Virus record (IMG/VR): IMGVR_UViG_3300009506_000118 | Location: 1-35,044 of that record | DNA length: 35,044 nucleotides | Origin: a virus | Direction: 5' to 3' (one strand) | Made by a program: the position numbers and the translations under genes | Shown here: positions 9,683-27,060 of the stretch, piece by piece | How the letters are laid out: each line of letters starts with the position of its first letter | How positions within the stretch are numbered: position 1 is the first letter of the stretch | The notes under the pieces: model-generated | What the model was told of the DNA's origin: nothing | Databases searched by the model: none | The model's input: only the letters and a program-made list of their open reading frames with translations

Positions 9683-9694
9683 AAAATTATAGAG

Positions 9695-9937: not shown

Positions 9938-9942
9938 TAGAG

Positions 9943-10698: not shown

Positions 10699-11081
10699 AG
10701 AATAAAGTCAAGTACTGGGAGTTCATCCGTAGGCTCCGGAACGATGAAAAAGTTAAGATTGGATTTATCAACCAGGATAATATAACTGTTGAACAACAGC
10801 TCGAATACATGGGAAAGTACAATGATAATTACTACATTTGTGTCCACCAGGGCATTCCGTTGGGATATATCGGCCAGGTAGATGGTGATATCCGCCTTGC
10901 CGTAACTCCCGCTTATCACGGACAGGGAGTGGCCACGTTTATGCTGACCAAGTTCATGACTCTATACCCGGAAGCCACGGCAAAGGTTAAGTTAGATAAT
11001 ATTGCAAGTAACAGATTGTTCCCTAGTTGCGGATTCGTACAATACGATCAGGATAAAAACTTTTTTTATTACAAGCTATGA
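10686..11081 (+). CDS. GNAT-family N-acetyltransferase
   Basis: Protein of 131 aa. The acetyl-CoA loop is LAVTPAYHGQGVATFML at 71-87, matching GNAT motif A with H-G-Q-G-V-A in place of the usual R-G-x-G-x-G/A. Strands before it and the VKLDNIASNRLFPSCGF segment after it (motif B) complete the fold. It would acetylate an amino group. The next gene is an aminotransferase with a 4-base overlap, so the pair could make an N-acetylated amino sugar, as in other nucleotide-sugar pathways. The substrate is inferred from context. Confidence 0.75.
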   Translation: MHLVKNKVKYWEFIRRLRNDEKVKIGFINQDNITVEQQLEYMGKYNDNYYICVHQGIPLGYIGQVDGDIRLAVTPAYHGQGVATFMLTKFMTLYPEATAKVKLDNIASNRLFPSCGFVQYDQDKNFFYYKL

Positions 11082-12260: not shown

Positions 12261-13074
12261 GAGAATAGCACTCTGTCTCTATGGTTACTTTAACAATAAA
12301 ACTAATCCGCACGCGGGGATACGTGGGTATCAGTACATTAAAGAAAATATACTGGATAAATATGTTACAGATGTTTACCTGCATTCTTGGGACGCGGACA
12401 ACGATAGTCTGATTCTGTCCCTGTATAATCCTATCAGTTGCACCATCGAGACCCAGATAGACTTTAATCCGATAGCTAGAGCGGAAGGGATAGATGAGGA
12501 TTGGATCAATGGAAGATATAAGAGGAAGGGTTCGCGATTCGCGAATTGTACAGTTCACAACTCCTTAAGCTTCTTTTATTCTCGTTCTCAGGCGATTTGG
12601 CATAAGTGTTGGGGGGAGATCGAGTTGGGTATTATCTACGATTATGTGATTGTATGCAGATTCGATCTTGGCCAGCGCAGCGGAGTGCACCGCGGGTTTA
12701 ATGTTTCGAAGATGCCGTTCGATCCAAAATTATCAATGGAGTTTATCTACAGCGCGATGTGGGACCAGCTCAATGCCGGATACGCCGATCAGTGGTTCTT
12801 TTCCAATAGCGCCAATATCGATAAGCTCGGGACGATGTATTCTGCATCACTTGAGTATTTAAGGCCCTATAGTTTTTATTTTACAATGTTAACAGGTGGA
12901 TGGCCCGAGAGTAACAGTAATGATGAATTCTCAAATGAACGGTTAGGGGGTCCGGGCACTTTTTATCCGGTGAAGTATCCCAGGTGGCAGATGATTAACA
13001 ATCATATCCTGCATAAGTGGCACTTTATTCAAACCGGATTGTATGAAAAATCCAAATTTTTAGACGGGACATGA
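12250..13074 (+). CDS. Glycosyltransferase-like protein of the glycan island
   Basis: Protein of 274 aa; an in-frame ATG lies two codons upstream. The opening KRIALCLYGYFNN, then KENILDKYVTDVYLHSWD and later YDYVIVCRFDLGQ, is a pattern I associate with uncharacterised glycosyltransferase-like proteins of viruses and polysaccharide clusters: an HSWD site and a CRFD acidic motif. No membrane segment is present. The function is inferred from this pattern and from its position between sugar-modifying genes. Confidence 0.5.
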   Translation: MNTKRIALCLYGYFNNKTNPHAGIRGYQYIKENILDKYVTDVYLHSWDADNDSLILSLYNPISCTIETQIDFNPIARAEGIDEDWINGRYKRKGSRFANCTVHNSLSFFYSRSQAIWHKCWGEIELGIIYDYVIVCRFDLGQRSGVHRGFNVSKMPFDPKLSMEFIYSAMWDQLNAGYADQWFFSNSANIDKLGTMYSASLEYLRPYSFYFTMLTGGWPESNSNDEFSNERLGGPGTFYPVKYPRWQMINNHILHKWHFIQTGLYEKSKFLDGT

Positions 13075-13745
13075 AACCAACACTCGTACTTTACACGCAC
13101 ACGGATATGGCTGATGTCTGGCCCATCTTCTTTGGACAGGTCTCGAAGTACATGTGGCAGTACCGGAAGATTGTTTATGTGGACCGGTATACGGATTTAA
13201 TACCATTGGATTACGAGAAGATTATTTATGATGATCGGTTGTCCTATAGGAAGAGGATGCTTTTTAGTCTCGCCCGGACCAACGATTTGGTGATCCTGTT
13301 CCAGCACGAGGATATGTTCCTGTATGATGCCCCGATGTTATCTGTTGTAGAGGATATGGCAGATGCGCTCATGCATCCGGGAGGACCTGCTTTCATGCGC
13401 CTGGTGCCCGTAGACGAGGATGTGGAGCGTAAGTATGGGTTCACGGTTCAACCAGCCATCTGGCCCCGGCAGCGTCTGTATAAGCTCCTGGATCAGTCCC
13501 GGGGAGAATCGATCTGGGACCTGGAGACTAAATCCAGGAGAGCTTTTCATCGATTAGCCTATAACAGTATCTCGATTCAGAAAGGGGAGAAGAGGGGGAA
13601 GTATCACTACGATTCGCCCATGTTCCCGGCCTGCGCCACAGCAATAACCAAAGGGAGGTGGAATACCAAGGAATATGGAAAGGAACTGGCAGAATTATTC
13701 TTTAAGTATAAGATCGATCCAAACGAAAGGGGAACCAATGATTAA
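13071..13745 (+). CDS. Unknown protein of the glycan island
   Basis: Protein of 224 aa with an ATGA junction to the gene before. Alternating strands and helices begin at PTLVLYTHTDMADVW, followed by KIVYVDRYTDL and DLVILFQHEDMFLYD. The H-E-D in the last segment could be a metal site of a GT-A-like fold. Similar proteins are often found beside glycosyltransferases, but I cannot name the family. Its end overlaps the bifunctional gene that follows by 8 bases. Confidence 0.5.
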   Translation: MKPTLVLYTHTDMADVWPIFFGQVSKYMWQYRKIVYVDRYTDLIPLDYEKIIYDDRLSYRKRMLFSLARTNDLVILFQHEDMFLYDAPMLSVVEDMADALMHPGGPAFMRLVPVDEDVERKYGFTVQPAIWPRQRLYKLLDQSRGESIWDLETKSRRAFHRLAYNSISIQKGEKRGKYHYDSPMFPACATAITKGRWNTKEYGKELAELFFKYKIDPNERGTND

Positions 13746-15111
13746 GGCTGTTATTTTTGATCTGGACGGCGTCCTTGTAGAACTCAAGGATGCCCATTTT
13801 GAGTGTCTGAACCGCGCACTTGCCGGTATTGGGGAAGAGTATGTGATTTCCATAGATGATCATTACGGAAAGTTTGACGGTCTTCCTACCCGTAATAAGT
13901 TACAAATGCTCACCGAGGACAGGGGGCTTCCGGAGAAGGAATACTGGCAGATCAACGACTGGAAGCAACGGTTTACTATTGGATATATCGAAGACCGGGT
14001 CGAGCGATCCCAGGATCTAAGAAATCTGATGGCCTGGTTAAATGCCAGCAGAATAAAGATTGCGGTTGCCTCCAACTCGGTTCGCAATACGATCTACACC
14101 GCGTTGGTTAAGCTCGGGGTAATCACTTATGTGGACTTTATTCTCTCCAACCAGGATGTAGTAAATGCCAAACCTAACCCAGAGATCTATTTAAAAACAA
14201 TAGCCGGACTTGGATTAAAGCCGGAGGAGTGCCTGGTGGTGGAGGATAGTCCATACGGGGTCAATGCAGCGGTAGCGAGTGGAGCCCGCGTTATGCGTGT
14301 GGCAGGAACGGGTGAGGTTAAAAAGTCCAACATCGAAAACTTTATCAAAACAATGAATATGGAAACCACTATAAAAAAATGGTCCGCCCCGAAGTGGAAA
14401 GTTTTGATCCCTATGGCCGGTGCCGGAAGTAGGTTCGAGAAGGCCGGTTATACCTTCCCCAAACCCCTTATCGAGGTCAATGGCAAACCTATGATCCAGG
14501 TCGTGGTAGAAAACCTGGGAATAGACGCCGAGTTTATCTACATCGTGCAGGAGGAGCACTACAAGAAGTACAATCTCTGGCACTTTCTCAACCTTCTTAC
14601 CCCGAACTGCAGGGTGATTACCATAAATGAGCTGACCGAAGGTGCCGCCTGTACTACCTTACTCGCCAAGAACATGATTAATAATGGCGATCATCTTCTG
14701 ATTGCTAATTCCGATCAGTTCGTGGAATGGGATTCTAATAGGTTTTATTACTCCATGGAAGACTCCGGAGTAGATGGCGGGATCCTGTGTTTCTACAATA
14801 CTCATCCGAAGTGGAGCTACGTTCAGCTCAATGACCGCGGGTTCGTGACCGAGGTGGCCGAGAAGGTACCGATAAGTACGAATGCAACGGTTGGAATCTA
14901 TTACTGGAAAAAAGGCAGCGATTATGTAAAATACGCTGAACAAATGATCCAAAAGAATATCCGCACCAATGGAGAGTTTTACGTGGCGCCAGTCTTTAAT
15001 GAGGCCATTGAGGCGGGGGCCAGGATAAGGTCCTTCTACGCCGAGCAGATGTGGGGTCTGGGCACTCCGGAGGATCTTGATCATTATTTAAAACACCATG
15101 GACGTAACTGA
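13738..15111 (+). CDS. Bifunctional HAD phosphatase / sugar-phosphate nucleotidyltransferase
   Basis: Protein of 457 aa made of two domains. Residues 1-205 are a beta-phosphoglucomutase-like HAD enzyme: D8-x-D10 in FDLDGV, VASNS at 110-114, K145, and E169-D170 in VVEDSPYG. Residues 218-457 are a nucleotidyltransferase: IPMAGAGSRF at 224-233 and FPKPL at 240-244, then an NSDQ acidic site (IANSDQFVEW). The start is the ATG overlapping the previous stop; an upstream extension in frame is less likely. The fusion would process a sugar phosphate and activate it as a nucleotide sugar, giving a donor for the transferases. The exact sugar and nucleotide are unknown. Confidence 0.85.
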   Translation: MIKAVIFDLDGVLVELKDAHFECLNRALAGIGEEYVISIDDHYGKFDGLPTRNKLQMLTEDRGLPEKEYWQINDWKQRFTIGYIEDRVERSQDLRNLMAWLNASRIKIAVASNSVRNTIYTALVKLGVITYVDFILSNQDVVNAKPNPEIYLKTIAGLGLKPEECLVVEDSPYGVNAAVASGARVMRVAGTGEVKKSNIENFIKTMNMETTIKKWSAPKWKVLIPMAGAGSRFEKAGYTFPKPLIEVNGKPMIQVVVENLGIDAEFIYIVQEEHYKKYNLWHFLNLLTPNCRVITINELTEGAACTTLLAKNMINNGDHLLIANSDQFVEWDSNRFYYSMEDSGVDGGILCFYNTHPKWSYVQLNDRGFVTEVAEKVPISTNATVGIYYWKKGSDYVKYAEQMIQKNIRTNGEFYVAPVFNEAIEAGARIRSFYAEQMWGLGTPEDLDHYLKHHGRN

Positions 15112-15709
15112 TGCAAAATATGCAATAGTTGTCCAGGGACCGTCGATGTACTATCCTATTTTGAGGCATAAATTTCGCGGTTTCAGCGTTATCTGGTCTA
15201 CCTGGAATGGAGAACGGGTGCCATGGATGAAAGGAGAAGTTGTTCTGAACAAGGTTCCGGAAATCAAGGGCACGCGCAACATCGCGATGCAACAGATCAG
15301 TACCTACAACGGGATCTTAAGGGCCAAAGAGCTTGGGTTTGAGCGGGTATTTAAGTGGAGAAGCGATATGTACCCTATCGGCATGCATAGAATACTTAAG
15401 CTATTGGATTTCAGCAGTATCAATATGATGTACTATCACAATCATCGCGATGGATACTTTGTGGACTTCTTCATGGAGGGGGATGTTGATACCATGCTTA
15501 AGATCTGGGACTTCAAGGATTTTGATGTTGAATATCCGGAGCTGGCCATCAAAAACAGCATCATTAAACACAGGATCGACAATATTTCATTCTTTGGTGA
15601 TGGGATAACGGAGGACAACGATATCTTTTGGATCAAGAAAGGGTTCTTTTTATCAGAATGCAGATCAAACGAAAGATTAACTTGCAATTATGAGATTCAT
15701 AGCACATAG
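15098..15709 (+). CDS. WavE-like lipopolysaccharide synthesis protein
   Basis: Protein of 203 aa. AIVVQGPSMYY at the start, VIWSTWNGE, then NIAMQQISTYNGILRAKEL and VFKWRSDMYP match the WavE family pattern (VVQGP...STW...NRQ...GL..A...KxRSD). WavE was named from an LPS core cluster in Vibrio and is thought to be a glycosyltransferase. The R-S-D segment is the likely metal site. It is shorter than typical members. The C-terminal part keeps a WIKKGFFLSE stretch. It overlaps its neighbours by 14 and 20 bases. Confidence 0.65.
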   Translation: MDVTDAKYAIVVQGPSMYYPILRHKFRGFSVIWSTWNGERVPWMKGEVVLNKVPEIKGTRNIAMQQISTYNGILRAKELGFERVFKWRSDMYPIGMHRILKLLDFSSINMMYYHNHRDGYFVDFFMEGDVDTMLKIWDFKDFDVEYPELAIKNSIIKHRIDNISFFGDGITEDNDIFWIKKGFFLSECRSNERLTCNYEIHST

Positions 15710-16166
15710 GGGGAACCTTGACGGACCAGATCCCAAGAACGAGAATACGTTGAATGCAATTAATATAGCAATTGCCGCAGGGTTTGATGTGGAGATTGAT
15801 ATTTGGCATGTAAATAATAGATTTTTTCTTGGACATGATTATCCGAAGTGTTATGTAGATGAATCTTTTTTAATTGATCACAGCAGTCGTCTTTGGTGTC
15901 ACGCGAAGACACTTCAGGCATTATATGCTCTTCTCGACATGCCAATGATGGAATGTTTTTTCCATAATATCGATCAATATACTCTTACTTCCAATGATCT
16001 TATTTGGACTTATCCAGATATGCCCGTTACAGATAAATCTATTATGCTTTTGTTTGAAAAATTTTCACTAGAGGATGCAAAAATACCTGAATATATCTAC
16101 GGACTTTGTAGTGATCACATAAAATACTACCGCAATGCTTTTAATCAGTTACGGGACCAGACCTGA
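15690..16166 (+). CDS. GDPD-like phosphodiesterase family protein
   Basis: Protein of 158 aa with all short motifs of the glycerophosphodiester phosphodiesterase fold at the N-terminus: H6-R7-G8, E18-N19-T20, E35-x-D37 and H49-D50. It resembles a compact subgroup found in capsule clusters and large viruses (RLWCHAKTLQALYAL; TLTSNDLIWTYPD; YIYGLCSDHI). Such proteins may cut or form a phosphodiester on the glycan, for example glycerol phosphate. At half the length of usual GDPD it is still complete for this subgroup as I remember it. The DNA is AT-rich compared with the flanking genes. Confidence 0.65.
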   Translation: MRFIAHRGNLDGPDPKNENTLNAINIAIAAGFDVEIDIWHVNNRFFLGHDYPKCYVDESFLIDHSSRLWCHAKTLQALYALLDMPMMECFFHNIDQYTLTSNDLIWTYPDMPVTDKSIMLLFEKFSLEDAKIPEYIYGLCSDHIKYYRNAFNQLRDQT

Positions 16167-17142
16167 ATACATCAAGATTAAACCACTAATCGATTATCTT
16201 TGGAAAGCAGATTATCCTTTTGTGGTGTGCAGGATCCGACAACATGAGAATCTTGTAGATAATTGTTACTTTGATTTTGAGTTAAAAGTAAGGGATAGAT
16301 ATAGTAGGTTAGATTGTCTTGTAGAATCTGCCCTGCATTGGTATAAGTGGAAGTATCCTTATACTCTCCCTGATATTACCCATGTTTTGGTGCAAGGGGA
16401 TACTACATCGGCAATGGCTATGGCACTTACTTCTTTTCATGCCGGTCTTAAGGTTATCCACATGGAGGCCGGTCTTCGATCGTGTGATGATAAAAATCCC
16501 TGGCCAGAAGAAGTTAATAGAAAACTCATATCTCAACTAGCAGATATCCATCTTTGTCCCACTCACAGTAATATGGTGAACCTAATCAATGAGAACGTAA
16601 CGGGTAAGAAGTACGTGGTCGGGAACACCTCGATTGATAGTATCAAAGAGCTTGGGTTCCAGTCAGCATATGGTGATCATGTGGTTATTACCCTGCATCG
16701 CCGGGAAAACTGGCCGATTATGGATAAGTGGTTTACACAATTGAATCTGATTGCTGGAAAGAGTAAGCTTAAGTTTATCTTTCCCATGCATCCCGGGGAG
16801 GCCGTCCAGAAGCACCGGGCGAAACTAAAAAACATTCAGATCCTGGATCCCATTGACCACGAAGGAATGGCCGAGTTGATCTCCGGAGCCCGCCTGGTTA
16901 TTACCGACAGCGGAGGCATCCAAGAAGAATGTTCTTACTATAAAAAGATTTGCCTGGTCTGCAGAACTACCACCGAACGAGTAGAATCCCTAGGGAAGAG
17001 TACGATCCTGATCAAACATCCGGAGGAACTACCCATACAGTTCGGCTACTATGAATATGAGTATAAAATAAACTGGCCTTGTCCCTACGGAGACGGGAGG
17101 GCCTCAGAGCAGATTTATGAAATCTTAAAGGATTTGAAATGA
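16135..17142 (+). CDS. wecB: UDP-N-acetylglucosamine 2-epimerase
   Basis: Protein of 335 aa, slightly shorter than typical (about 375). Family motifs in order: GTRPEYIKIKPLI at 7-19, VQGDTTSAMA, HMEAGLRS, PEEVNRKL, VITLHRRENW with the catalytic His, FPMHPG, and ITDSGGIQEE. The enzyme interconverts UDP-GlcNAc and UDP-ManNAc, giving a ManNAc-type donor for polysaccharide. It overlaps the GDPD-like gene by 32 bases and couples to the next gene by ATGA. An alternative is a related epimerase acting on a modified UDP-sugar. Confidence 0.9.
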   Translation: MLLISYGTRPEYIKIKPLIDYLWKADYPFVVCRIRQHENLVDNCYFDFELKVRDRYSRLDCLVESALHWYKWKYPYTLPDITHVLVQGDTTSAMAMALTSFHAGLKVIHMEAGLRSCDDKNPWPEEVNRKLISQLADIHLCPTHSNMVNLINENVTGKKYVVGNTSIDSIKELGFQSAYGDHVVITLHRRENWPIMDKWFTQLNLIAGKSKLKFIFPMHPGEAVQKHRAKLKNIQILDPIDHEGMAELISGARLVITDSGGIQEECSYYKKICLVCRTTTERVESLGKSTILIKHPEELPIQFGYYEYEYKINWPCPYGDGRASEQIYEILKDLK

Positions 17143-17714
17143 AACTGAATTGGACCGGTACCGACAGCCTGATGCTCGTGGATTATTCCATGCGCACCTT
17201 CCGAAAGAAGGTTTACTGGTGGATTTTCCGGAGATTAATCCGTGTTATGGAATATTTCATCGAGGGACATTTGTGTGATTCTGAACTGGTATTTAGGAAT
17301 GTTGTTAGGTTTGGAACTCGCAAGCCTATTTGGACATTGCTTCCCAAACTAACCTATACCGAGAAATTTCCAAAAAAAGAACACTCAACCTTTACCGTTC
17401 TGTATTATTTCCCACGGGGCGGTGATTTAAAATTTACACAATGGCTGTATGGATGGGATATCTTCAAGGCCGTTTGTCGTGCCTTTCCGGAATTCAGATA
17501 TGTGGTTGTGGAAGGCGATTCCGATATGGAATATATTTTCCCGGAGGTAGATTTTTACCTTCGTCCGAACCGGCACGACGGGTCTTCGAGATTGAGGATG
17601 GAGTGTGAGATCCAGGAAATACCTTATTATTGGTCTGTGCAGAACCCAGATCTCCCAAGAATATTTGTTATGATCGATGAATGTTACCAGCAGTGGCTGC
17701 AAGGAAGAAAATAA
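17139..17714 (+). CDS. GT-B-like glycosyltransferase, C-terminal domain type
   Basis: Protein of 191 aa. TFTVLYYFPRGGDLKFTQW, EFRYVVVEGDSD and the segment FYLRPNRHDGSSRLRMECE look like the donor domain of a GT-B enzyme, where R-x-x-x-HDG-x3-x3-E is the nucleotide-sugar site. The N-terminal 80 residues are short, Trp/Arg-rich (RTFRKKVYWWIFRRLI) and too small for a full acceptor domain. It may be a reduced transferase or work with a partner protein. Confidence 0.55.
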   Translation: MKLNWTGTDSLMLVDYSMRTFRKKVYWWIFRRLIRVMEYFIEGHLCDSELVFRNVVRFGTRKPIWTLLPKLTYTEKFPKKEHSTFTVLYYFPRGGDLKFTQWLYGWDIFKAVCRAFPEFRYVVVEGDSDMEYIFPEVDFYLRPNRHDGSSRLRMECEIQEIPYYWSVQNPDLPRIFVMIDECYQQWLQGRK

Positions 17715-18070
17715 AGCGAGCGGTTCGCATCAAGGTTTATTATGACCGTTCGGGTCCGTACATTAATTATGTCAGGAACCTTATGGTCATCGCCGTTGCC
17801 TATAAGGTCTATGAGGATGCCGCCATCGGGAGGTGGATCTATTCCAACCGGTACTGGGTGATTCCTGTTATTCTGGTATCCTATGTGTTGGGTAGAATAA
17901 TTATAGGGTTTACTGACAAAAGGATGAGAATCCGAGAATATGAGCTAGAGGAATATAACCGCACAAATCCTGATCTTCAAGACATTAAAAGCGGAGTTAC
18001 CAAAATACTCAATAAGTTAGATGAGAATAATTCAGTTAGCAACGATCCCGGGCAGGGAGGAAAGCCTTAA
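17681..18070 (+). CDS. Two-pass membrane protein
   Basis: Protein of 129 aa overlapping the previous gene by 34 bases. A basic N-terminus precedes two hydrophobic segments at about 33-42 and 60-78 (WVIPVILVSYVLGRIIIGF). A charged C-terminal coiled coil follows (EYELEEYN; KSGVTKILNKLDEN). It could recruit the soluble glycan enzymes to the membrane, but nothing in the sequence proves this. Another option is a lysis or envelope protein. Confidence 0.55.
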   Translation: MLPAVAARKKIKRAVRIKVYYDRSGPYINYVRNLMVIAVAYKVYEDAAIGRWIYSNRYWVIPVILVSYVLGRIIIGFTDKRMRIREYELEEYNRTNPDLQDIKSGVTKILNKLDENNSVSNDPGQGGKP

Positions 18071-18680
18071 GAAGACCATTAACAGCCTGCTCCCCCAGTC
18101 CGATGTCATTCAGGTGGTACTGAACGGCCACGATTCTGTTCCGGAATTTTTGGACAATTCCAAGATCGAAGTTATCCAGAGCGACAACCGGTATGGAGAT
18201 GCTGCCAAGTTCCTGAACACGGAGAGGCGGGATGGCTACATCCTGACCTGTGATGATGACCTGGCCTATCCGGAGGGATACGTTGGTTACATGATCGATG
18301 GCGTGAATCGCCACCAGGCCGCGGTAAGTTTGCTCGGTAAGATCTACGATAACCGTCCGGTCAATTCCTTCCGGGGTGGTTATACCCAGATATTCCGCTG
18401 CCTTACAAGCGTGAAGAATGATCATCGTGTGGATATCGGTGGTACGGGGGCAATGGCTTTTCATACCGATCTACTGAAGCTGTCTGTTAAGGATTTCCCA
18501 AGGAAAAACATGGCCGATATCTGGTTCGCCAGGGCCGCAAAGGAGCAAAACGTACCTATTTACGTACTTGCCCATCCCGCCCGTTACGTCAAGCACACCC
18601 TGCATAGCCGCAGGATCTGGGTGATGACTTCCAAGTGGGATCGGTACCAGACCAAGATCCTAAATGAATTCCTGAAATAA
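18021..18680 (+). CDS. GT-A-type glycosyltransferase, last gene of the island
   Basis: Protein of 219 aa. MRIIQLATIPGREESLKKTI at the start and YILTCDDDLAYPEGYVGYM near 74-90 give a clear GT-A layout with a DDD metal site. A Gly-rich GGTGAMAFHTDLL segment and a later D-x-W-F-A region (NMADIWFARAAKE) fit the acceptor side. It overlaps the membrane gene by 50 bases. It is followed by a promoter, a short non-coding unit and a terminator, so the operon ends here. Confidence 0.75.
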   Translation: MRIIQLATIPGREESLKKTINSLLPQSDVIQVVLNGHDSVPEFLDNSKIEVIQSDNRYGDAAKFLNTERRDGYILTCDDDLAYPEGYVGYMIDGVNRHQAAVSLLGKIYDNRPVNSFRGGYTQIFRCLTSVKNDHRVDIGGTGAMAFHTDLLKLSVKDFPRKNMADIWFARAAKEQNVPIYVLAHPARYVKHTLHSRRIWVMTSKWDRYQTKILNEFLK

Positions 18681-18856: not shown

Positions 18857-19561
18857 ATGTTACTCAAGACCGAGATTACGGAGTATACCGGCCATGTATT
18901 TAAGAAACTCGGGTATCACGTAATAAACACAGATAAGATACAGAAACCCAAGGCCGTTAATGGATCCGGCTCCTGGTTTTTTTATGTTGCCAATCAGAGG
19001 GACCGGCGCAGCAAGCCCCTGCCGGTATATTGCAATAGCACGGTCGTAGATATCCGCCTTGCGCTGGACACGCCCCTGCACTCGAACAGGATGGAATTAC
19101 GTATCTTTCCGGATAATGATGACAGTCAAGACCCCATTATTAAGTACATTAACTACGATCAGTTTGTGCACGCTTCTGCCAGGGTCAGCAACGGCAATCA
19201 TTCCTGGGTAACGTATACGGAGGGTTTTTCAGAGATTCGTGTTTTGATCCTGGGATCACTGGATTGGCTCGTGGATATGGCTGAAACAGGGACCTCGACC
19301 ACCTCTAGCACATCGACATCTTCGACCTCATCGAGTTCTAGCTCGTCTAGCTCGAGTTCGTCGAGTTCCAGCTCCAGCACCTCGAGCAGTTCGACCTCAT
19401 CGAGCTCTACGTCCAGTTCCACAACCGAAAGTTATACCGATACGTATTTGTTTGATGACGGGGTGGATCAATTCAGGTGGCAGGTCAGAGACGGAAATTT
19501 ATGCATCGATAAGTATGTTGGTGGTACCTGGGTAAACATAGATGAATTATCGTTACCATGA
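18857..19561 (+). CDS. Virion protein with a mucin-like Ser/Thr tract
   Basis: Protein of 234 aa in three parts. Residues 1-143 are a beta-rich domain, clearly paralogous to the protein at 23436-23978: both have DRRSKP at 49-54, an LDTPLHSN/FDTALDSN-MEL segment and a [YI]DY[SD]xF block. Residues 145-190 are almost only Ser and Thr, about 46 in a row. Residues 195-234 are a short module (FRWQVRDGNLCIDKYVGGTW) that resembles the repeats of the next gene. No signal peptide is present. I infer a structural, exposed protein, such as a head fibre or tail fibre attachment, with a flexible linker that could carry O-glycans. Mixed TCN and AGY serine codons show selection for the amino acid, not a simple DNA repeat. 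Confidence 0.75.
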   Translation: MLLKTEITEYTGHVFKKLGYHVINTDKIQKPKAVNGSGSWFFYVANQRDRRSKPLPVYCNSTVVDIRLALDTPLHSNRMELRIFPDNDDSQDPIIKYINYDQFVHASARVSNGNHSWVTYTEGFSEIRVLILGSLDWLVDMAETGTSTTSSTSTSSTSSSSSSSSSSSSSSSSSTSSSSTSSSSTSSSTTESYTDTYLFDDGVDQFRWQVRDGNLCIDKYVGGTWVNIDELSLP

Positions 19562-19568
19562 GATTTGT

Positions 19569-19576
19569 TAACTTTG
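19569..19576 (+). promoter_or_regulatory. Possible promoter box
   Basis: TAACTTTG in the 49-base gap before the gene at 19611. It is followed 14 bases later by the CGGGT element. No A-tract is seen at the usual distance. Confidence 0.4.
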
Positions 19577-19590
19577 TAAAATTGTAGGAT

Positions 19591-19608
19591 CGGGTAAGAC
19601 TAAAAAAA
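19591..19608 (+). repeat. CGGGT...A6 junction element, copy 1
   Basis: CGGGTAAGACTAAAAAAA, two bases before the ATG at 19611. One of five near-identical copies at gene junctions between 19.5 and 34.8 kb. The frame of the downstream gene would read SGKTKK across it but has no good start codon upstream. Confidence 0.7.
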
Positions 19609-19610
19609 TC

Positions 19611-19931
19611 ATGGCAGACCAATATCACGAACTCGTAATTTCAGGCCCGACAACCATTGAGCTTACCGATGGTACGGATACCTTCAGAATCTATGTGGCC
19701 GGTACCGAACTTTATTACGCGCAGGCAATAACCGAGCTTGGATTTTCCGGAGAACAGGGTACCGATTGGGACATTATAGACTCGGAGAGTCTTCCAGGCA
19801 CCAAGAGGGGGTGGTTCAGGCTTGGGGCAAGAGATGATAATTACGTAACGGATCAAGCCATAACAATTACCGGGTTTGGTGGAACCAAGGGCACGGATTG
19901 GGAAAATGTATCAGAACGAAACGTAGCATAG
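19611..19931 (+). CDS. Small repeat protein, probably a tail-fibre-type module
   Basis: Protein of 106 aa built of two related units: FRIYVAGTELYYAQAITELG then FSGEQGTDWD (25-54), and FRLGARDDNYVTDQAITITG then FGGTKGTDWE (69-98). Both end in GTDW plus an acidic residue. The C-terminal module of the protein before it has the same FR...GTWVNIDELSLP shape, and this protein repeats DSESLP. No signal peptide. I infer a beta-structured module of an adhesion or fibre protein. Confidence 0.65.
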   Translation: MADQYHELVISGPTTIELTDGTDTFRIYVAGTELYYAQAITELGFSGEQGTDWDIIDSESLPGTKRGWFRLGARDDNYVTDQAITITGFGGTKGTDWENVSERNVA

Positions 19932-22160
19932 ATGAAAAAGATAATTTTTATATTGGCACTGGTCTTGGCCTCTGTTGTGTCAATGGGGCAGACCAAGCAT
20001 AATCAAGGCGTAAGGATAGGCCCCGAAGGAGTGGGGGCGACCATTGATTCCGTAAAAGATGAGAATAACCAGCTTGCCCCATATGTGGGCGGATCAAGGG
20101 ATAGCTTTTTTAACGATTCAATTTATACCCTATCTGAATATATTGGTGAATTGCTAACGGATTTATTGACATTAACCGACAGGGTGGAGGCCCTTGAAAA
20201 CGCTAACGCGGATACCACATCTCCTGTTATGAATTATGGAGAAGTTTTTGAAAGTACGCCGAATAAATGGGTGTTGGTGTTCAACGAGGCATTGATAACA
20301 ACGGGAGACAGTATTGATGATGCGTTCACTCTAACGGAGAATGGCGCTGCTGTATCTATAGATTCATTTAATGTAAGTGTTAATGTGTTGAATTTATATA
20401 CTTCCGCCGTGTCTGGTGGTACTACATTAAGAGCATCTTATGATGAACCGGTTAGTGGCGGCGTGAGGGATCTTGCCGGAAATACACTTAACAGTTTTGT
20501 GGATTCAACCGTCAGGGTGTTTAATAAAGTTTTGATTCCTATAGATTATTTATTTTATCTAAAAGGAAATGGTGATTTTACTGATGAAGGAGATAGGTTT
20601 AATGGGACAAAATATGGAACTGTTGATTTTGATGGAGACAGCTGTTTCTTATTTTCTGGATCTGGTGGCACTGATTATATCAAAATACCAGATCCGGGAA
20701 TAACTGGAGATTTTTCAGTAAGATATAGGGCGTGGTTTGAAGAAGATGCGAATGATGTATGGTATGTGTGGTCGAATGGAAATGAAGGTGGCAGTGAATC
20801 TGGAATATCTTCCAAGGCAGATGGTGATGGGGCGAGCAATTATTTTCTGTTTGTAAGATCTGGGAATGGAGCCTCAACCTCTTGGGCGCAAGGCGTTAAT
20901 GGAGACATATCAGAAGATACGTGGCACAATATAGTTGAAGTTTATGATGTAAATATTGGTGGATCTGCTGCATCATGTGAGATCTGGGTAGACGGAGTAA
21001 TGGTTAATTCGGCAGATACTACATTTACTATAACATTAGATTATACAGGCGATATTTATCTGGGGTCAATGTATACTCCTGCATTTGGAATGAGGAATGG
21101 GGCTAAATTGGATGAGATAACTTTTTTTAATTATAGACTCAGCCCGGCTCTTATTGATTCATTAAACACGAATCCGTTTAGAATGCCATTTCGCGAGGTT
21201 GACACGGGGGGTGGAACCGGAAATGATTCGGCATATATTATAAAATTTGGAGTGGATTACTCTACTGCAGGTGTTGGGCCATTAGACAATGCCGATCTCA
21301 CAAGCCTCTTTGGTTATACTTCTTATTTTACTGATAGCCGGAACTATAGTAATACAGTTGTTATAGATAATGATACATGTCAAAGATTTTATACCGAGGC
21401 TGGAGATATAACAAATTCACAGATTTACATAATCCTTGACAGTGCGTATGAGGAACTTTATTTCACATTGGATTTTAAAGTTAGGGACGGAATGATTATC
21501 CACCCAGACTATCCAGAGGGGGATGCAACAACCTACAGTGATTATGGCGGTAAATTATGGGGAGGACTAACCAGCACTTCTGCTTATACAAGCACGAGGA
21601 TAGTACCATGGAATTTATCCGACCCAACCGAGGGTTCTTTTAGCACGAGGATAAACTGGTACGGTGAAAGTGGTGCGTTAAATTCTTACACAATAGATCA
21701 AACGCCGGGATTAACAACATCCTATCATATACCATTTGGATATACCCCATGGACGGTTGAGGATAGTGCGTGTACTGGAAATAATTGCTATTCGATTTAT
21801 CAAGATGTTGATTGGGTTAACATGACGGTTAGGGTTTCAATGAATGATGCCACCGTCGGATCTTATAATGGAATCTTGAATGTATATGCTGGCGACTCAT
21901 GTATTTTTAGTAAGAACAATATGAGATGGAGGGGTAATTCCAATGTTGGTATAGACATTGCTTGGCTTCTTTACTTATGGGGCGGGCAAGGAAGACCAAT
22001 TGTTGACGAATATATAGACATAGACAATGTAATACTGTGGAGATATGCTGATAATATACCTGGAAGTCCGGATTATCCGACAGTAAAATTTCCACATCAA
22101 GGCAATGTGGAAGGAGATAAAATACCGCTTCCAGCTATGGCCGGGAGAAGAGTAGAATGA
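19932..22160 (+). CDS. Exported tail protein with lectin-like and polysaccharide-lyase-14-like domains
   Basis: Protein of 742 aa. Residues 1-20 form a signal peptide (MKKIIFILALVLASVVSMG, then Gln). Residues about 62-95 are a short coiled coil (LTDLLTLTDRVEALENAN). Residues 97-195 resemble a bacterial Ig-like or SwmB domain (VLVFNEALI...GNTL). Residues 205-420 resemble a LamG/concanavalin-type lectin (EDTWHNIVEVYD; LDEITFFNYRLSP). Residues 440-720 resemble polysaccharide lyase family 14: YGGKLWGGLT, then VNMTVRVSMND...GILNVYAGDS and a closing LLYLWGG. I infer a receptor-binding depolymerase that cuts acidic polysaccharide. A signal peptide on such a protein is unusual for a phage. The DNA is AT-rich compared with the glycan genes. 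Confidence 0.7.
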   Translation: MKKIIFILALVLASVVSMGQTKHNQGVRIGPEGVGATIDSVKDENNQLAPYVGGSRDSFFNDSIYTLSEYIGELLTDLLTLTDRVEALENANADTTSPVMNYGEVFESTPNKWVLVFNEALITTGDSIDDAFTLTENGAAVSIDSFNVSVNVLNLYTSAVSGGTTLRASYDEPVSGGVRDLAGNTLNSFVDSTVRVFNKVLIPIDYLFYLKGNGDFTDEGDRFNGTKYGTVDFDGDSCFLFSGSGGTDYIKIPDPGITGDFSVRYRAWFEEDANDVWYVWSNGNEGGSESGISSKADGDGASNYFLFVRSGNGASTSWAQGVNGDISEDTWHNIVEVYDVNIGGSAASCEIWVDGVMVNSADTTFTITLDYTGDIYLGSMYTPAFGMRNGAKLDEITFFNYRLSPALIDSLNTNPFRMPFREVDTGGGTGNDSAYIIKFGVDYSTAGVGPLDNADLTSLFGYTSYFTDSRNYSNTVVIDNDTCQRFYTEAGDITNSQIYIILDSAYEELYFTLDFKVRDGMIIHPDYPEGDATTYSDYGGKLWGGLTSTSAYTSTRIVPWNLSDPTEGSFSTRINWYGESGALNSYTIDQTPGLTTSYHIPFGYTPWTVEDSACTGNNCYSIYQDVDWVNMTVRVSMNDATVGSYNGILNVYAGDSCIFSKNNMRWRGNSNVGIDIAWLLYLWGGQGRPIVDEYIDIDNVILWRYADNIPGSPDYPTVKFPHQGNVEGDKIPLPAMAGRRVE

Positions 22161-22178
22161 TTATAAAAATCGTTAAAT

Positions 22179-22196
22179 CGGGTAAAACTAAAAAAC
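22179..22196 (+). repeat. CGGGT...A6 junction element, copy 2
   Basis: CGGGTAAAACTAAAAAAC, identical base for base to copy 5. A 20-codon frame at 22157-22219, which starts by ATGA overlap with the depolymerase stop, crosses it and reads SGKTKK. The start of the next membrane gene is seven bases later. Confidence 0.75.
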
Positions 22197-22203
22197 CAGA
22201 AAC

Positions 22204-22380
22204 ATGGAACATTTATTAAAAGTATTAAATTGGGTTAAGGTAAATTGGTTCGCGGCTCTTTGGCTCGTCGCGCTATTTTTTACTGCAGTTAAAGTTGTGC
22301 CAATCTGGGCATCATGGGCGGTTCCGTTCCTCGAACTCTTTGGGTGGTTAATCTATAAAATAGCAAAAAAGAGAAAATGA
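22204..22380 (+). CDS. Small two-pass membrane protein (58 aa), lysis-module candidate
   Basis: A 58-codon frame overlapping the next gene by ATGA. The peptide has two hydrophobic stretches, about 14-33 (VNWFAALWLVALFFTAVKVV) and 36-52, and a strongly basic end (KIAKKRK). The charge pattern puts the tail in the cytoplasm. Together with the next gene it may form a holin pair. The leader AAACCAGAAACA before the ATG recurs before the gene at 32764. Confidence 0.6.
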   Translation: MEHLLKVLNWVKVNWFAALWLVALFFTAVKVVPIWASWAVPFLELFGWLIYKIAKKRK

Positions 22381-22628
22381 AAGACAAAAAGCTTTGGCAA
22401 CAAATATTCCAATATCTGTTTGCTGCATTAATTGCAGTCGGTTTATATTGGGTGACATATTTTCTTTTCATGAAAGAGATGCCGGAAAGAAATCTTGAGG
22501 CCGGACTCATCATCTTGGGGGTGGTTGCTTCGGCATTCACCCAGGTTGTCGGTTTCTTTTTTGGCTCATCCAAGGGCAGCTCCGATAAGTCGGATGCCAT
22601 TAATGCAAAGTTGAACGGGGATAAGTAG
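22377..22628 (+). CDS. Holin-like protein
   Basis: Protein of 83 aa with two membrane segments, about 11-32 and 41-60, and the tail VGFFFGSSKGSSDKSDAIN. The GSSxGSxxK ending after the second segment is frequent in phage holin-like proteins. Small size, two segments and a polar tail support a role in host lysis. No endolysin gene is visible in this window, so the assignment stays moderate. Confidence 0.6.
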   Translation: MKDKKLWQQIFQYLFAALIAVGLYWVTYFLFMKEMPERNLEAGLIILGVVASAFTQVVGFFFGSSKGSSDKSDAINAKLNGDK

Positions 22629-23275
22629 TGACCTATACCCAACGGATATTAAACCAATTAAAGAGAAGCCCGAGTAAATACGTTTGGGATGATATCCGTG
22701 TTGCTCCTGGGCAATGGACGCTTCCGGTCCCGGCTGCTCCAAATCTTACGACATGGATCGTAGATAGCGTTACTTATTACGTTTATGAGTTTGCTGATGC
22801 AGATTATGTGGCTTTCTCGACCCAGATCCCGCACTGGTGGGTTCCAGACACGCCTCTGCGCCCTCATGTGCATTGGACGCCAAGGGGATTTGGCAGCGCA
22901 GAGTCTGGACACACCGTTGGTTGGACGGTGGAGTTCACCATTCAGAAGGTCACCGGCGTGTTCGAGGATTCTTATACACGGGTGCTTACTGGTGCCTGTT
23001 CGGGCGTCAACAACAAACATGAGATCGCATACGGTACGGGTAATACTGAGGATGTCCAGGTCGTAACCAAAAATAAGGGATACAAAGCATCCTCGATGAT
23101 TGTCGGCGTGATTTCCAGGGATGGTGGAAGCTGGAACAGCGCTTTGGCTGATGAGCAGCCCGTTCTTCTTGAGCTTGATTTTCATGCTCAGAAAGATCCG
23201 AGTGCATTGGGAACCTACTTTGAGTACCATCATCTGACCGATTACTATAAGAAACAATATGGCATAGAGGCTTAA
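22628..23275 (+). CDS. Structural protein with PHxHW motif
   Basis: Protein of 215 aa starting at a GTG that overlaps the previous TAG (TAGTG). It has the segment WDDIRVAPGQWTLPVPA at the start, then DYVAFSTQIPHWWVPDTPLRPHVHW around 58-83 and later VLLELDFHAQKD. Proteins with this 'F..Q.PH...PH.HW' pattern are common in tailed-phage structural regions and are predicted as beta-sandwich virion proteins. The exact place in the particle is not known. Confidence 0.6.
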   Translation: MTYTQRILNQLKRSPSKYVWDDIRVAPGQWTLPVPAAPNLTTWIVDSVTYYVYEFADADYVAFSTQIPHWWVPDTPLRPHVHWTPRGFGSAESGHTVGWTVEFTIQKVTGVFEDSYTRVLTGACSGVNNKHEIAYGTGNTEDVQVVTKNKGYKASSMIVGVISRDGGSWNSALADEQPVLLELDFHAQKDPSALGTYFEYHHLTDYYKKQYGIEA

Positions 23276-23292
23276 GCCGTGCATGGTCGCCC

Positions 23293-23356
23293 GGAGGGGC
23301 GGATACAGAGCGTCCTGCAGATGCGGTCGGGGTTAAATTCCCTAATCCGTCCCTCC
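23293..23356 (+). ncRNA. Three-way-junction RNA structure
   Basis: A 12-bp closing stem pairs 23293-23304 (GGAGGGGCGGAT) with 23345-23356 (ATCCGTCCCTCC), with one G-U. Inside are hairpin 23310-23324 (GCGTC/GATGC, loop CTGCA) and hairpin 23330-23342 (GGG/CCC with a 7-base loop TTAAATT). It fills most of the 160-base gap before the next promoter. There is no U-tract, so it is not a normal terminator, and it lacks D and anticodon arms, so it is not a tRNA. The rest of the gap (to 23435) holds only the promoter and leader. Confidence 0.5.
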
Positions 23357-23365
23357 TTTCTTCCC

Positions 23366-23400
23366 TAAAAAAAGGCGCTTTTAATTAATCCATACCTTTG
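23366..23400 (+). promoter_or_regulatory. Promoter (A-tract plus TACCTTTG)
   Basis: TAAAAAAA at 23366-23373 and TACCTTTG at 23393-23400, 19 bases apart. It drives the gene at 23436 with a leader of about 30 bases. Confidence 0.8.
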
Positions 23401-23435
23401 TTGTGATTTAATTTTAACGCTAAATTCTATTTGCT

Positions 23436-23978
23436 ATGTTGTTCAAAGAAACTATTGTAGATTGGAAAGGTCTGGGAGCCCCCAAGGCCACCGTTGTTGT
23501 TCTTAACACGAACAGAATTAACACGTTCCAGGTTAGGGCTACGAGTTATAGCAAGTTCTATTACTCATTAAACCCATGGGATCGAAGGTCTAAGCCGCAT
23601 TACATTGAAGCCACGAGCTCAGTTGCGACTCTGACCACTGCATTTGATACGGCCCTGGATTCAAACGTGATGGAGCTTGTTGTGTACCCCGATGATGATA
23701 TCACGGCTGATACGGTATCGAAGCACATTGACTATTCTGACTTCGCCTATGCCTATGCATACGAAGATGACTGGACCAAGTCCTGGGTGTGGTATACAAC
23801 CAAGGCGTTTGGTCTCGAGCGTGTCCTGGTAGACAACTCACTGGACGAACTCGTTGATATTGCGGCCACTGGTTCAACGACCACGACCACGACTTCGACA
23901 ACCTCGACCTCGAGTTCCTCGACCTCTAGCACCTCGACTTCTAGTACCTCGACTTCGACCAGTACAACTGGAGCCTAA
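23436..23978 (+). CDS. Paralogous virion protein with Ser/Thr tail
   Basis: Protein of 180 aa, paralogue of the protein at 18857. It shares DRRSKP at the same positions (49-54), LDSNVMELVVYPDDD, HIDYSDFAYA and SWVWYTTKAF. It ends in about 32 residues of only Thr and Ser (146-178), so here the tract is a free C-terminal tail rather than a linker. Its own promoter and terminator make it a single-gene unit, which suggests high expression, as expected for a multi-copy virion protein such as a decoration or fibre protein. O-glycosylation of the tail is a hypothesis. Confidence 0.75.
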   Translation: MLFKETIVDWKGLGAPKATVVVLNTNRINTFQVRATSYSKFYYSLNPWDRRSKPHYIEATSSVATLTTAFDTALDSNVMELVVYPDDDITADTVSKHIDYSDFAYAYAYEDDWTKSWVWYTTKAFGLERVLVDNSLDELVDIAATGSTTTTTTSTTSTSSSSTSSTSTSSTSTSTSTTGA

Positions 23979-24065: not shown

Positions 24066-24740
24066 ATGACACTACCAGAAACACCCAAGACCAGGTACAA
24101 TATCCATGATGAGAACATAGCAACTAAGATCAGTGACGAGATTCCCGCCTTCCTGGGCTGGGAAGGATCCATTGATATCAAGCAGATCTGTCAGTATCTC
24201 GTTCTCATGTACGACCCGGACTCACCCATGCGTCGAGAAGTGGCCAACTACATGCAGCGCAAGTCCGCCTGTGCCGAGCTGGTTGGGTTCCCTAAAACAG
24301 GTAAGAAATGGTCCGAAGAGGCTGAGAAGATATTACTGGGACAGAACCAGGACTTCAATGTGCTCAAGGCCGGATTCCTATCCTCCCTGGCCATACCGGA
24401 ATATACTGAGCTTATTATTCTCCTGGAGATCCAGCGCCGCCGATCCATCGATGTGCTGAATGGAGAGATCACGGATAAAACACATGCGATCATGCAGTCC
24501 ATCACGCAACGGATCAATTCACTGACCAGCCAGTTGTTTGGATCCGGTGAGGAGGATGAGGTAGAGGCGGTGCGGAGAGCTCTTTACATGCAGATCAACG
24601 TGGATAAGTTAAGGATCCGACCCGAGGATGTTGTGGATCAGTTCAATGAAGAGGGCAACCTGGACGACTTCAGCCCATATGGAGAGGATTATGTGGTAGA
24701 AGAGATGCATTTTATAGATGACGAAGAACCCCAATCTTAA
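24066..24740 (+). CDS. Putative terminase small subunit
   Basis: Protein of 224 aa, mostly helical: a region with CQYLVLMYDPDSP near 40-55, a helical centre (LLEIQRRRSIDVLNGEI) and a long acidic tail (EEMHFIDDEEPQS). It overlaps the large terminase gene by 23 bases, the usual place for the small subunit, which binds DNA and stimulates the motor. No clear helix-turn-helix signature was seen, so the name rests on position and size. Confidence 0.5.
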   Translation: MTLPETPKTRYNIHDENIATKISDEIPAFLGWEGSIDIKQICQYLVLMYDPDSPMRREVANYMQRKSACAELVGFPKTGKKWSEEAEKILLGQNQDFNVLKAGFLSSLAIPEYTELIILLEIQRRRSIDVLNGEITDKTHAIMQSITQRINSLTSQLFGSGEEDEVEAVRRALYMQINVDKLRIRPEDVVDQFNEEGNLDDFSPYGEDYVVEEMHFIDDEEPQS

Positions 24741-27060
24741 GCTTTATAAACCCTACAAGGAATGGTTCGGTGTCAATCTTGGCGACCGGAATCTTAATCC
24801 TGTTTATATTTCCTTACCAAAGCCGCCTCCGGCGCATCTCGTGGATGGTTATGGTCTGCATCCCGATGATCAATATTTCCATCGCAAGGAAATCCCGCAT
24901 AAACTCATTAACCTAGAGAAAAGAATTGTCCGGGAGTTGCAACGGGATCACGAGAAGAATGCAAACATCAGACTGAACGAGTGGAGGATCTACAAGAGAT
25001 TCTGGAATGCGCTGGAGTCTGAGAAGGATCACTACAAGGAAGAAATCAAGTTCATTAAAAATGTGTGGTGGTGGAGAACTTATGGATACTTCTTCTACAA
25101 CGATGGTGAGATCACCTATATTCCACCAGATTATTTCGACTTCCTGAATTTCTGGCAAACCGCTGACATCAACGAGGATACCGGTGATTACTTCTTCGAA
25201 TATCGGGAAAAGGATCGGTTGAAGTATCTCTATAAGCACTATCTCGAAAATACCACTGAGGCTTTCGCGCATTACGACAAGGATGGTCGCGCCCTTAAAG
25301 TCAATGGTAAGTATAAGATGGTCGATATGGGAACCAGGACGTTTTATGGTTCTGGTGAACCCAAAACCAGGCGGTCTGGTGCAACAACCCAAGCTATTCA
25401 TAAGGTCTGGAAAACGGGTTGCACGAAGAAGGGGGCGAACTGTACCATGGTGTCCATGGATGGAGACAAGGCAGAGAAGCACTACTACCAGAAGATGGTT
25501 CCGGGGTGGAACACCTATCCGATCTGGCTCCGCCCACTCACCAGCGGAAACCGAAGGCCCTCAGAGATCAAGCTCGAATCTCCTCCCCAGCTCTATGGCA
25601 TGAACGAGATGAAGTCTTACGTGGGATTTACCAAGAGTGGTGGAGAGAAGAAGAATGATGGAGATAAGATTCACTGTATGCTCAGTGATGAAGAAGGTAA
25701 GGGTGGTCCAGACGTATATGAGCGCTGGAACGTGAACCAGCTCACTATGTCATTGAACCTTGGAACGAATATCATAGGGTGGTCCGATCATCCCTCTACC
25801 GTGGAGCAAATGGAGGGAGGAGGTATAGCCTATTACAAGATGATGCAGCAGAGCAACTTCTATGTCAGGCTTAAGGAGACCGGTCAGACAATATCTGGGC
25901 TGGCCCGTATATTTTTCCCCAATTACAAAGGCCAGGGTGGTTTTGTGGATAGATTCGGAAGGGATGTGGCAGACACCCCCACGGAGCGCCAGATCCGATT
26001 AAGGTCAAACTCTATGTTTGCTAAAACAGGGAAGGGCCTTCGGGAGATCATGCAGGAGGCCAGGGATCAGTTGCTTCGGGATGGATCTGCGGAAGCCATG
26101 GAGAAGTACCGGTCGCTTCGCCGTAAGCAACCGCTCGAATGGGACGAGTGCTGGTTGGGTGAGGCCGGTGATCTTGGATTTAACATGGATATCATCGATA
26201 AGCGTCTGGCCGAACACCGGCGTCTGATCGTGGTTCGTCAGCCACCCATTATAAGAGGAAACTTCATCGGAGATCTTTTCAACCCACGTTGGCAGACCGA
26301 TATGGATAACGGCAGGTTCGAGATGTCGCTTAAGCTCAAGAAGGAGATGCGGGCAGAGACTATTGAGATTCCGATGTGGGACGCCATTCATCAGACCATT
26401 TATCCACATCGGGGTCCAATGTTACCTACTAATTTTGTGGGATCTGCTGATGTGTTTGGGTTCGACAACAAGGATATTGCCAAGATGCGGGATTCTCATT
26501 CCAGAATGTCAGATGGTGGAATAGCTATTTTCATGGGTAGAAATCTGGTTACAGACATAGGGGACGATATGAGCACCTGGACCGGTCACAAGTTTGTGTT
26601 ATCCTACCGAAACCGCACTACGCTTATTGAGTTTTCCCGGGACGTTGCCATGGCTCACGTTTTCTTTGGGGCTATGTTCTACCCGGAACGGAACAAGGAG
26701 TGGCTCTGGCACTACTTCATTGACCAGGGTTTGATGGGGTATCTGCTTTATGATATCGACCCCATTACCGGGAAGCGCTCGGATAAGCCCGGATTTTATT
26801 CTATTGAACGCAGCAAGGAAGAGTTGTTCGCCTGGTTGAAGCAGTACATTGATTATCGCGGGAAGGATGAGGATTTTGCTTCGTTCCTGCAGGAGTGCAA
26901 GGAAATCAGGGGCACGGAACAGATGCGGTTATATGACAGATTGACAGCACACGGCGGTGCCGGGTTAGGCTACAAACAATTACGCATCCTTCAAACAGCA
27001 ACTCAACCCCAGACCCTAGACCTTAATAGTATCGCAATGTTTAGAAAGCATGCAATCTAA
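24718..27060 (+). CDS. terL: Terminase large subunit
   Basis: Protein of 780 aa, long for a large terminase. ATPase part: EPKTRRSGATTQ at 214-225 is a Walker A of the deviant K-x-R-R-x-G-x-T type; the usual Lys before Thr is replaced by Ala222 and Lys216 lies earlier. Walker B is IHCMLSDEEGK with D324-E325-E326. GTNIIGWSDHPST around 349-361 fits the coupling region. A nuclease-type acidic strand, VGSADVFGFDN, starts near 572. The enzyme cuts the concatemer and pumps DNA into the capsid through the portal encoded next. It has a long N-terminal extension (1-200) of unknown role. Confidence 0.88.
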   Translation: MTKNPNLKLYKPYKEWFGVNLGDRNLNPVYISLPKPPPAHLVDGYGLHPDDQYFHRKEIPHKLINLEKRIVRELQRDHEKNANIRLNEWRIYKRFWNALESEKDHYKEEIKFIKNVWWWRTYGYFFYNDGEITYIPPDYFDFLNFWQTADINEDTGDYFFEYREKDRLKYLYKHYLENTTEAFAHYDKDGRALKVNGKYKMVDMGTRTFYGSGEPKTRRSGATTQAIHKVWKTGCTKKGANCTMVSMDGDKAEKHYYQKMVPGWNTYPIWLRPLTSGNRRPSEIKLESPPQLYGMNEMKSYVGFTKSGGEKKNDGDKIHCMLSDEEGKGGPDVYERWNVNQLTMSLNLGTNIIGWSDHPSTVEQMEGGGIAYYKMMQQSNFYVRLKETGQTISGLARIFFPNYKGQGGFVDRFGRDVADTPTERQIRLRSNSMFAKTGKGLREIMQEARDQLLRDGSAEAMEKYRSLRRKQPLEWDECWLGEAGDLGFNMDIIDKRLAEHRRLIVVRQPPIIRGNFIGDLFNPRWQTDMDNGRFEMSLKLKKEMRAETIEIPMWDAIHQTIYPHRGPMLPTNFVGSADVFGFDNKDIAKMRDSHSRMSDGGIAIFMGRNLVTDIGDDMSTWTGHKFVLSYRNRTTLIEFSRDVAMAHVFFGAMFYPERNKEWLWHYFIDQGLMGYLLYDIDPITGKRSDKPGFYSIERSKEELFAWLKQYIDYRGKDEDFASFLQECKEIRGTEQMRLYDRLTAHGGAGLGYKQLRILQTATQPQTLDLNSIAMFRKHAI

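Follow-up and report, generated by a model that had tools for sequence, protein, structure and literature searches.

A GT27-like glycosyltransferase and Ser/Thr-tailed proteins as a candidate O-glycosylation pair in a phage related to viruses of Bacteroidota

Paralogous proteins with Ser/Thr tracts

The stretch of DNA analyzed here (the window) is a virus record of 35,044 bases (G000), whose terminase and portal genes match head-and-packaging families of PHROGs. It encodes two proteins with long serine/threonine (Ser/Thr) tracts, a GT2-family glycosyltransferase (4982-6028) that may modify them, and a glycan island lying between the enzyme and the tract proteins (Table 1). The phage is related to viruses of Bacteroidota. 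Its closest cultured phages, judged by portal comparison, are Flavobacterium elemo podoviruses (~22%); a blastp comparison (E<=1e-4) with a 42-kb stretch of one of these, the rest of that phage being outside the comparison, gave no match to the 4982 or tract proteins. Nearer relatives were found in IMG/VR: L003 (G002, portal 45%), L004 and L005 (G001, 83 kb). Further such relatives from the same database are L014 (G004, 77 kb), L019 (G005, 84 kb), L057 (G013, 82.6 kb), L103 (G020, 86 kb) and the near-identical pair L025 and L027 (G011 and G012; 20.6 and 85 kb). A Bacteroidales metagenome-assembled genome (MAG) from a fen (L106) contains a near-identical copy of G012, and G011, G012 and the MAG contig (G021) were counted once. 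Co-occurrence was assessed in the seven records holding the tract-protein family (window, G001, G004, G005, G012, G013 and G020), some of which are fragments. No family copy was found in G002 and G006-G010, likewise fragments, and these records were left out, both for and against.

Table 1. Location of the discussed features within the window.
Feature	Coordinates	Strand	Description
GT2-family glycosyltransferase	4982..6028	+	348 amino acids (aa); profile and predicted fold nearest polypeptide GalNAc-transferases
Glycan island	6450..18680	+	glycosyltransferases, two Sulfotransfer_2, WecB-type UDP-GlcNAc 2-epimerase, short DegT-type aminotransferase, HAD-nucleotidyltransferase fusion
Glycosyltransferase-like gene	6450..7199	+	family A13
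Glycosyltransferase	18021..18680	+	family profile matches KfiA / heparosan synthase B (GlcNAc-transferase type)
Tract protein 1	18857..19561	+	234 aa; shared N-terminal domain, 45-residue Ser/Thr linker, C-terminal piece of ~44 residues
Ser/Thr run of tract protein 1	19292..19426	+	45 residues, uninterrupted
Tract protein 2	23436..23978	+	180 aa; same N-terminal domain, free Ser/Thr tail; closely precedes the small- and large-terminase-position genes, an order shared with relatives
Ser/Thr tail of tract protein 2	23874..23969	+	32 residues, uninterrupted; overlaps 15-bp tandem repeat
Small-terminase-position gene and large terminase	24066..27060	+	conserved downstream neighbors of the tract-protein family

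The two tract proteins are paralogues: when their first 144 residues are compared by BLASTP, 41% are identical across 143 aa (E 2e-30), and both have the DRRSKP motif at residues 49-54. A preliminary description of this DNA had proposed such a relationship and had reported Ser/Thr runs of 32-46 residues, forming a linker in one protein and a free tail in the other; this is confirmed here, the longer run measuring 45 residues. The longer run is composed of 34 Ser and 11 Thr, the shorter of 17 Thr and 15 Ser, and among 2000 shuffles of each protein at its own composition no Ser/Thr run exceeded 10 residues. Among 48 non-overlapping open reading frames (ORFs) of the window, runs of at least five Ser/Thr residues occur in these two only. 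Encoded by nine and ten different Ser/Thr codons, respectively, the tracts are not simple trinucleotide runs. The tract of 23436 overlaps a 15-bp tandem repeat (4.9 copies, 81% matches, 23886-23958), which makes growth by slippage plausible.

No membrane-type segment or signal was found in either tract protein. Searches of PHROGs with the tract proteins and with an alignment of 11 members, as well as single-protein searches of viral contigs and phage records, gave no useful match, and the same was true of the major capsid protein in phage records. Weak Pfam matches of the tract (Tir_receptor_N, SOG2, US29, DUF4614 and BUD22, all under the cut-off) were discarded as functional signs, because they are due to Ser composition. 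The C-terminal piece of 18857 shows a weak likeness to L003:13617-13961 (24 residues, E 8e-4 for one comparison). In the latter protein, four TTTT spacers precede a domain that resembles window 19611-19931 in its C-terminal half (59% over 32 residues).

The seven records hold 14 copies of the family: two in each of the window, G005, G012, G013 and G020, three in G004 and one in G001. In G004, G005, G012, G013 and G020 a tandem pair is located upstream of the terminase genes; the single copy of G001 has the corresponding position, and the first copy of the window lies 3.9 kb further up than the second, terminase-proximal one. The Ser/Thr-rich end is borne by the first copy of every tandem, while the second copy is tail-less in G004, G005, G012 and G013 and carries a FISUMP domain (PF09603, C-lectin-like; 9e-25) in G020. 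The third copy of G004 has a FISUMP domain as well (4e-26). These two fusions of the N-terminal domain to PF09603 are located at L103:8545-9681 and L017:853-1932 (minus strand).

All eight tailed copies have the same arrangement: Gly comes after the domain, and the next 5-6 residues include 4-6 Ser/Thr, as in GTTTTW (G001), GTTSTTTTSEAETTTTQHL (G004), GTTTSSTEQ (G013) and GATTTTTTTTEEREQ (G020). Runs of at least five Ser/Thr residues are present in 6 of the 14 family ORFs vs. 9 of 588 other ORFs (Fisher p 2e-7), the background being a greedy non-overlapping set that may include spurious ORFs, to which G013 and G020 contribute one locus each and in which pieces of one contig overlap slightly. 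With the window removed, the counts are 4/12 and 9/542 (p 8e-5). The family members without such a run are six tail-less copies and the tailed copies of G012 and G001, which were counted as misses because Phe interrupts the run of the former and that of the latter is only 4 residues long.

In a tree of the 14 N-terminal domains, the five tailed first copies form a clade (97/94), and the two window copies are closest to each other (96/93), next to G001 (86/85). Given this grouping and the Gly plus Ser/Thr end common to the tailed copies, the long tracts are most readily explained as a short Ser/Thr end of older origin that was expanded and duplicated in this lineage. The N-terminal domain was modeled with a pLDDT of 88.1 as two similar beta units. 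Comparison with solved structures gave no match (Foldseek best E 0.076, VIA best Z 3.3, PDB profile search also without match), which is not evidence for a new fold. Among the viral models of BFVD, half of the domain is similar to a small beta protein from a phage with the annotation flagellar/swarming motility (TM 0.71 of the target, root-mean-square deviation (rmsd) 2.7, 76 columns), a likeness that is weak because its Foldseek E-value (0.025) is above 1e-3. The likeness to these FlbD-like small phage proteins concerns one unit, whereas the window domain has two units per chain and a display part.

A GT2-family enzyme accompanying the tailed proteins

An enzyme of the 4982 type is present in 7/7 records with the tract-protein family, and of three glycosyltransferase families of the lineage that were checked it is the only one found in all of them. 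Five records (G004, G005, G012, G013 and G020) have it directly upstream of the tailed copy and on the same strand, with gaps of ~1.5, ~1.4, ~0.05, ~1.25 and ~0.3 kb, respectively.

Polypeptide GalNAc-transferases (ppGalNAc-Ts) constitute CAZy family GT27 and are responsible for mucin-type O-glycosylation in animals and Toxoplasma. Each of the six members of the 4982 family matches PF00535; by this match and the fold comparisons below, the family has a GT-A catalytic domain with a GT2-like N-terminal half. A profile of four members found chondroitin synthase (4e-12) and several ppGalNAc-Ts (T9 at 2e-9) in the PDB, and a six-member profile found ppGalNAc-Ts with E-values down to 5e-18 (T9). Profile positions 167-262 by themselves match ppGalNAc-T9 (independent E-value 6e-7) across the C-terminal segment GGLF..WGGEN.E.S...GG....P....GH.F, the Gal/GalNAc-T motif; W, S, GG, GH and F are aligned and E is shifted by one. 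The controls, run at the sequence level as two family profiles (A12 and A13) and one single ORF (8915), gave no ppGalNAc-T match in the PDB: the 18021 family found heparosan synthase B (8e-30) and KfiA (6e-19), while the 6450 family and ORF 8915 found nothing at E<=0.1.

The AlphaFold model of 4982-6028 (pLDDT 76.8, pTM 0.81) points in the same direction. ppGalNAc-Ts account for 50/50 of the Foldseek matches listed (best 1.5e-16) and for the 29 best entries of VIA-align (Z 27.2, rmsd 3.7, 294 residues aligned), followed by a Leptospira glycosyltransferase (Z 21.3, rmsd 2.1, 184 residues) and human B4GALNT1 (Z 20.6, rmsd 3.6, 221 residues). The enzyme, like the tract proteins, has no membrane-type segment or signal. 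A second GT2-family member and a protein with an STTTT stretch are encoded next to each other in G001 (L012:1284-1694 and L012:1739-2623), and the two are a possible second pair of enzyme and acceptor.

The reading that we favor, to which sequence comparison and the model lend about an even chance, is that the 4982-6028 enzyme O-glycosylates the Ser/Thr tail. Several observations weigh against it: (i) the enzyme does not adjoin the tract gene in the window (~12.8 kb, with the island between) or in G001 (~21 kb, other strand); (ii) its universal presence can also be that of a core gene with another substrate; (iii) the 15-bp repeat permits neutral growth of the tract; (iv) the window enzyme alone (phmmer) finds no ppGalNAc-T at E<=0.1; (v) among the sequence matches of the profile the best is to a polysaccharide enzyme, chondroitin synthase; (vi) DxH, the metal motif of ppGalNAc-Ts, is replaced by [G/A]xD in the window enzyme and its close relatives, DAH being present only in the distant L058; (vii) the protein, 348 aa long, extends no further than the catalytic domain and lacks the C-terminal ricin-type lectin domain that ppGalNAc-Ts carry (PMC4202792); and (viii) the model is of moderate quality and the long catalytic domains of ppGalNAc-Ts favor high Z values. 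The later His (GHVF) is invariant in the phage enzyme family. Because of points (iv) to (vii) the enzyme is described here as GT27-like and is not filed as a member of GT27.

If the tracts were unmodified, they would be flexible spacers or tails grown by repeat slippage, the one in 18857 being a stalk that keeps the C-terminal piece off the particle. The tandem repeat in 23436 fits such an origin, as do the short TTTT linkers of other proteins of the lineage, e.g. L003:13617-13961, and the constancy of the enzyme while the tail ranges from a few to 45 residues; on the other hand, the tailed copies (8/8) keep Ser/Thr and not generic linker residues (Gly, Pro, Ala, Asn), and a ppGalNAc-T-like enzyme accompanies them in every record. 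We consider unmodified spacers unlikely. Another possible target is the phage DNA itself, given that phages with sugar-modified DNA encode glycosyltransferases; the tracts would then be incidental. No gene of the thymidylate-synthase/dCMP-hydroxymethylase family (PF00303) was found in the seven records, fragments among them, other routes to modified bases not having been searched. This weakens the DNA-modification explanation, which we regard as very improbable.

The glycan island and neighboring genes

The content of the island varies freely, and the constant pair consists of the enzyme and the tailed protein. The 6450 type (A13) occurs in 6/7 records and in fragment G002, and was not found in G004; the 18021 type was found in four records (window, G001, G005 and G012) and not in G004, no separate search for it having been made in G013 and G020. 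Large islands are present in the window, G001 and G005, and a small one in G012. In G004, which keeps the Ser/Thr tail, a single enzyme was detected, the GT2-family enzyme, this being the sole match to Pfam Glycos_transf_2. Coupling of tract length to the whole island was rejected, since G001 and G005 combine large islands with short tails only and G004 retains its tail with a single Glycos_transf_2 match.

These results bear on the preliminary description, according to which the phage may O-glycosylate its own tracts through a GT-D enzyme and the adjacent island. Self-glycosylation as such is strengthened by the 4982-6028 enzyme, with its co-occurrence, synteny and ppGalNAc-T-like profile and fold. 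Its route through a GT-D enzyme or the whole island is not: the candidate taken for the GT-D enzyme (9943-10698), which has an RFSDGE-like motif by eye, gave no GT-D match in Pfam (E<=0.1) or NCBIfam (E<=0.01), and G004, which has its tail while no member of the 6450 and 18021 types was detected in it, speaks against tract-island coupling.

The island could also act together with the 4982-6028 enzyme to make or alter a host-surface polysaccharide, e.g. to block superinfection, the Ser/Thr tracts being unrelated. Chondroitin synthase as the best sequence match, the likeness of the 18021 family to KfiA and heparosan synthase, the sulfotransferases and sugar-nucleotide genes, and an island size independent of the tail are all in line with this. 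Such an activity is less easily reconciled with the enzyme fold, which is nearest to protein-modifying glycosyltransferases, and with the island ORFs, among which a membrane-type segment is present only in the small 17681-18070 protein and no flippase, polymerase or lipid-linked starter was recognized. Moreover, a survey of 395 Bacteroidota genomes, in each of which 5 candidates were scored, gave 449 bits for the phage contig itself and at most 74 bits for every other match to the enzyme family; within this survey, the enzyme is therefore not a common polysaccharide enzyme of the host. On balance, we judge the polysaccharide alternative somewhat unlikely.

The gene at 18021-18680, ending ~0.18 kb upstream of tract protein 1, suggests by its profile match a GlcNAc-type step in the island. 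Two Sulfotransfer_2 proteins (PF03567; 8268-8918 and 11652-12260) are ~22% alike, and the glycan may be sulfated. In the protein encoded at 13675-15111, a HAD phosphatase-type domain is fused to a sugar-phosphate nucleotidyltransferase. Short DegT-type aminotransferases are encoded in two phages, at 11078-11704 (208 aa) and L039:16659-17270 (minus strand; 203 aa), and are 34% alike; as the Pfam model has 360 positions, this conserved shortness suggests that they are functional rather than decayed.

Downstream of tract protein 1, a 742-aa protein (19932-22160) with a signal-type N-terminus has sub-threshold matches to the SWM repeat and polysaccharide lyase 14 and is a candidate fibre or enzyme. 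A repeated leader, CGGGTAAAACTAAAAA (0-2 mismatches), is located at 19590, 22178, 24047 and 34770. Two of these sites directly precede the starts 19611 and 24066, and the one at 22178 is followed by an ATG around 22205. When up to 3 mismatches are allowed, the two strands together have 8 matches vs. 0.08 expected, and the leader may be an expression signal of the phage.

Predicted tail glycosylation and known systems

In the scheme that we propose, the N-terminal domain, with its two predicted beta units, would be a common anchor, and the C-terminus a swappable display part: (i) a Ser/Thr tail, (ii) a Ser/Thr linker with a small domain, (iii) a FISUMP domain, or (iv) none. The position before the terminase genes and the FISUMP fusions are indirect pointers to a possible structural role of the family. 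The first copy of an ancestral tandem pair would have ended in Gly and a Ser/Thr-rich stretch; in the window phage this tailed copy would have been duplicated and its stretches would have grown to 32 and 45 residues. The soluble 4982-6028 enzyme, resembling the catalytic domain of ppGalNAc-Ts, would most likely act in the cytosol, putting the first sugar on tail Ser/Thr while virions assemble or earlier, and further enzymes of the island may extend or decorate this sugar. A cytosolic acceptor appears more natural than an exported polysaccharide, because both the enzyme and the tract proteins lack signals and membrane-type segments, and no protein was recognized as a flippase, polymerase or lipid-linked starter. 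We infer the donor sugar, the order of the steps and the virion location of the proteins along with the glycosylation and the anchor role themselves.

A broader interpretation, which we put forward tentatively and as no more than possible, is that this phage lineage has its own mucin-type O-glycosylation, in which a soluble GT27-like starter, the tail of a display protein and a variable island for extension would provide an exchangeable sugar coat beside an exchangeable C-lectin display. If true, the enzyme and its acceptor tail would form a compact, simple and genetically encoded system resembling the start of animal mucin-type O-glycosylation, which would explain the presence of glycan islands beside packaging genes in some phages, have a bearing on how GT27 enzymes originated, and make a soluble tool available for the glycosylation of Ser/Thr tags in bacteria.

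The predicted system can be compared with three known ones. With the ppGalNAc-Ts of GT27 it shares the nearest fold, the C-terminal Gal/GalNAc-T motif and Ser/Thr-rich acceptor tails, whose acceptor role is here a prediction; the phage enzyme differs in having no ricin-type lectin domain, in the replacement of DxH by [G/A]xD, and in being soluble and phage-encoded. Serine-rich adhesins of Gram-positive bacteria are glycosylated, with the participation of GT-D enzymes. As in these adhesins, a long Ser-rich tract is the predicted O-glycan carrier in the window, whereas the GT-D candidate has no GT-D match, the tract proteins have no secretion signal and their tracts are much shorter.

Virion glycosylation is known from few phages, and Freeman et al. 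reportedly described it in 2023 in the mycobacteriophages Che8, Corndog and Myrna. Mycobacteriophages glycosylate their capsid and tail-tube proteins with their own enzymes, as demonstrated by experiment (PMC10877033, PMC12363180). In both cases phage-encoded glycosyltransferases are thought to act on the phage's own structural proteins; there the acceptors are capsid and tail-tube proteins, whereas here a GT27-like enzyme is predicted to act on a Ser/Thr tail dedicated to this role. In the open-licence literature we found no phage polypeptide GalNAc-transferase, GT27 in phages, mucin-like phage protein or Ser/Thr-tail glycosylation system. Self-glycosylation of virions is already known; what would be new is a dedicated tail of Ser/Thr paired with a GT27-like enzyme.

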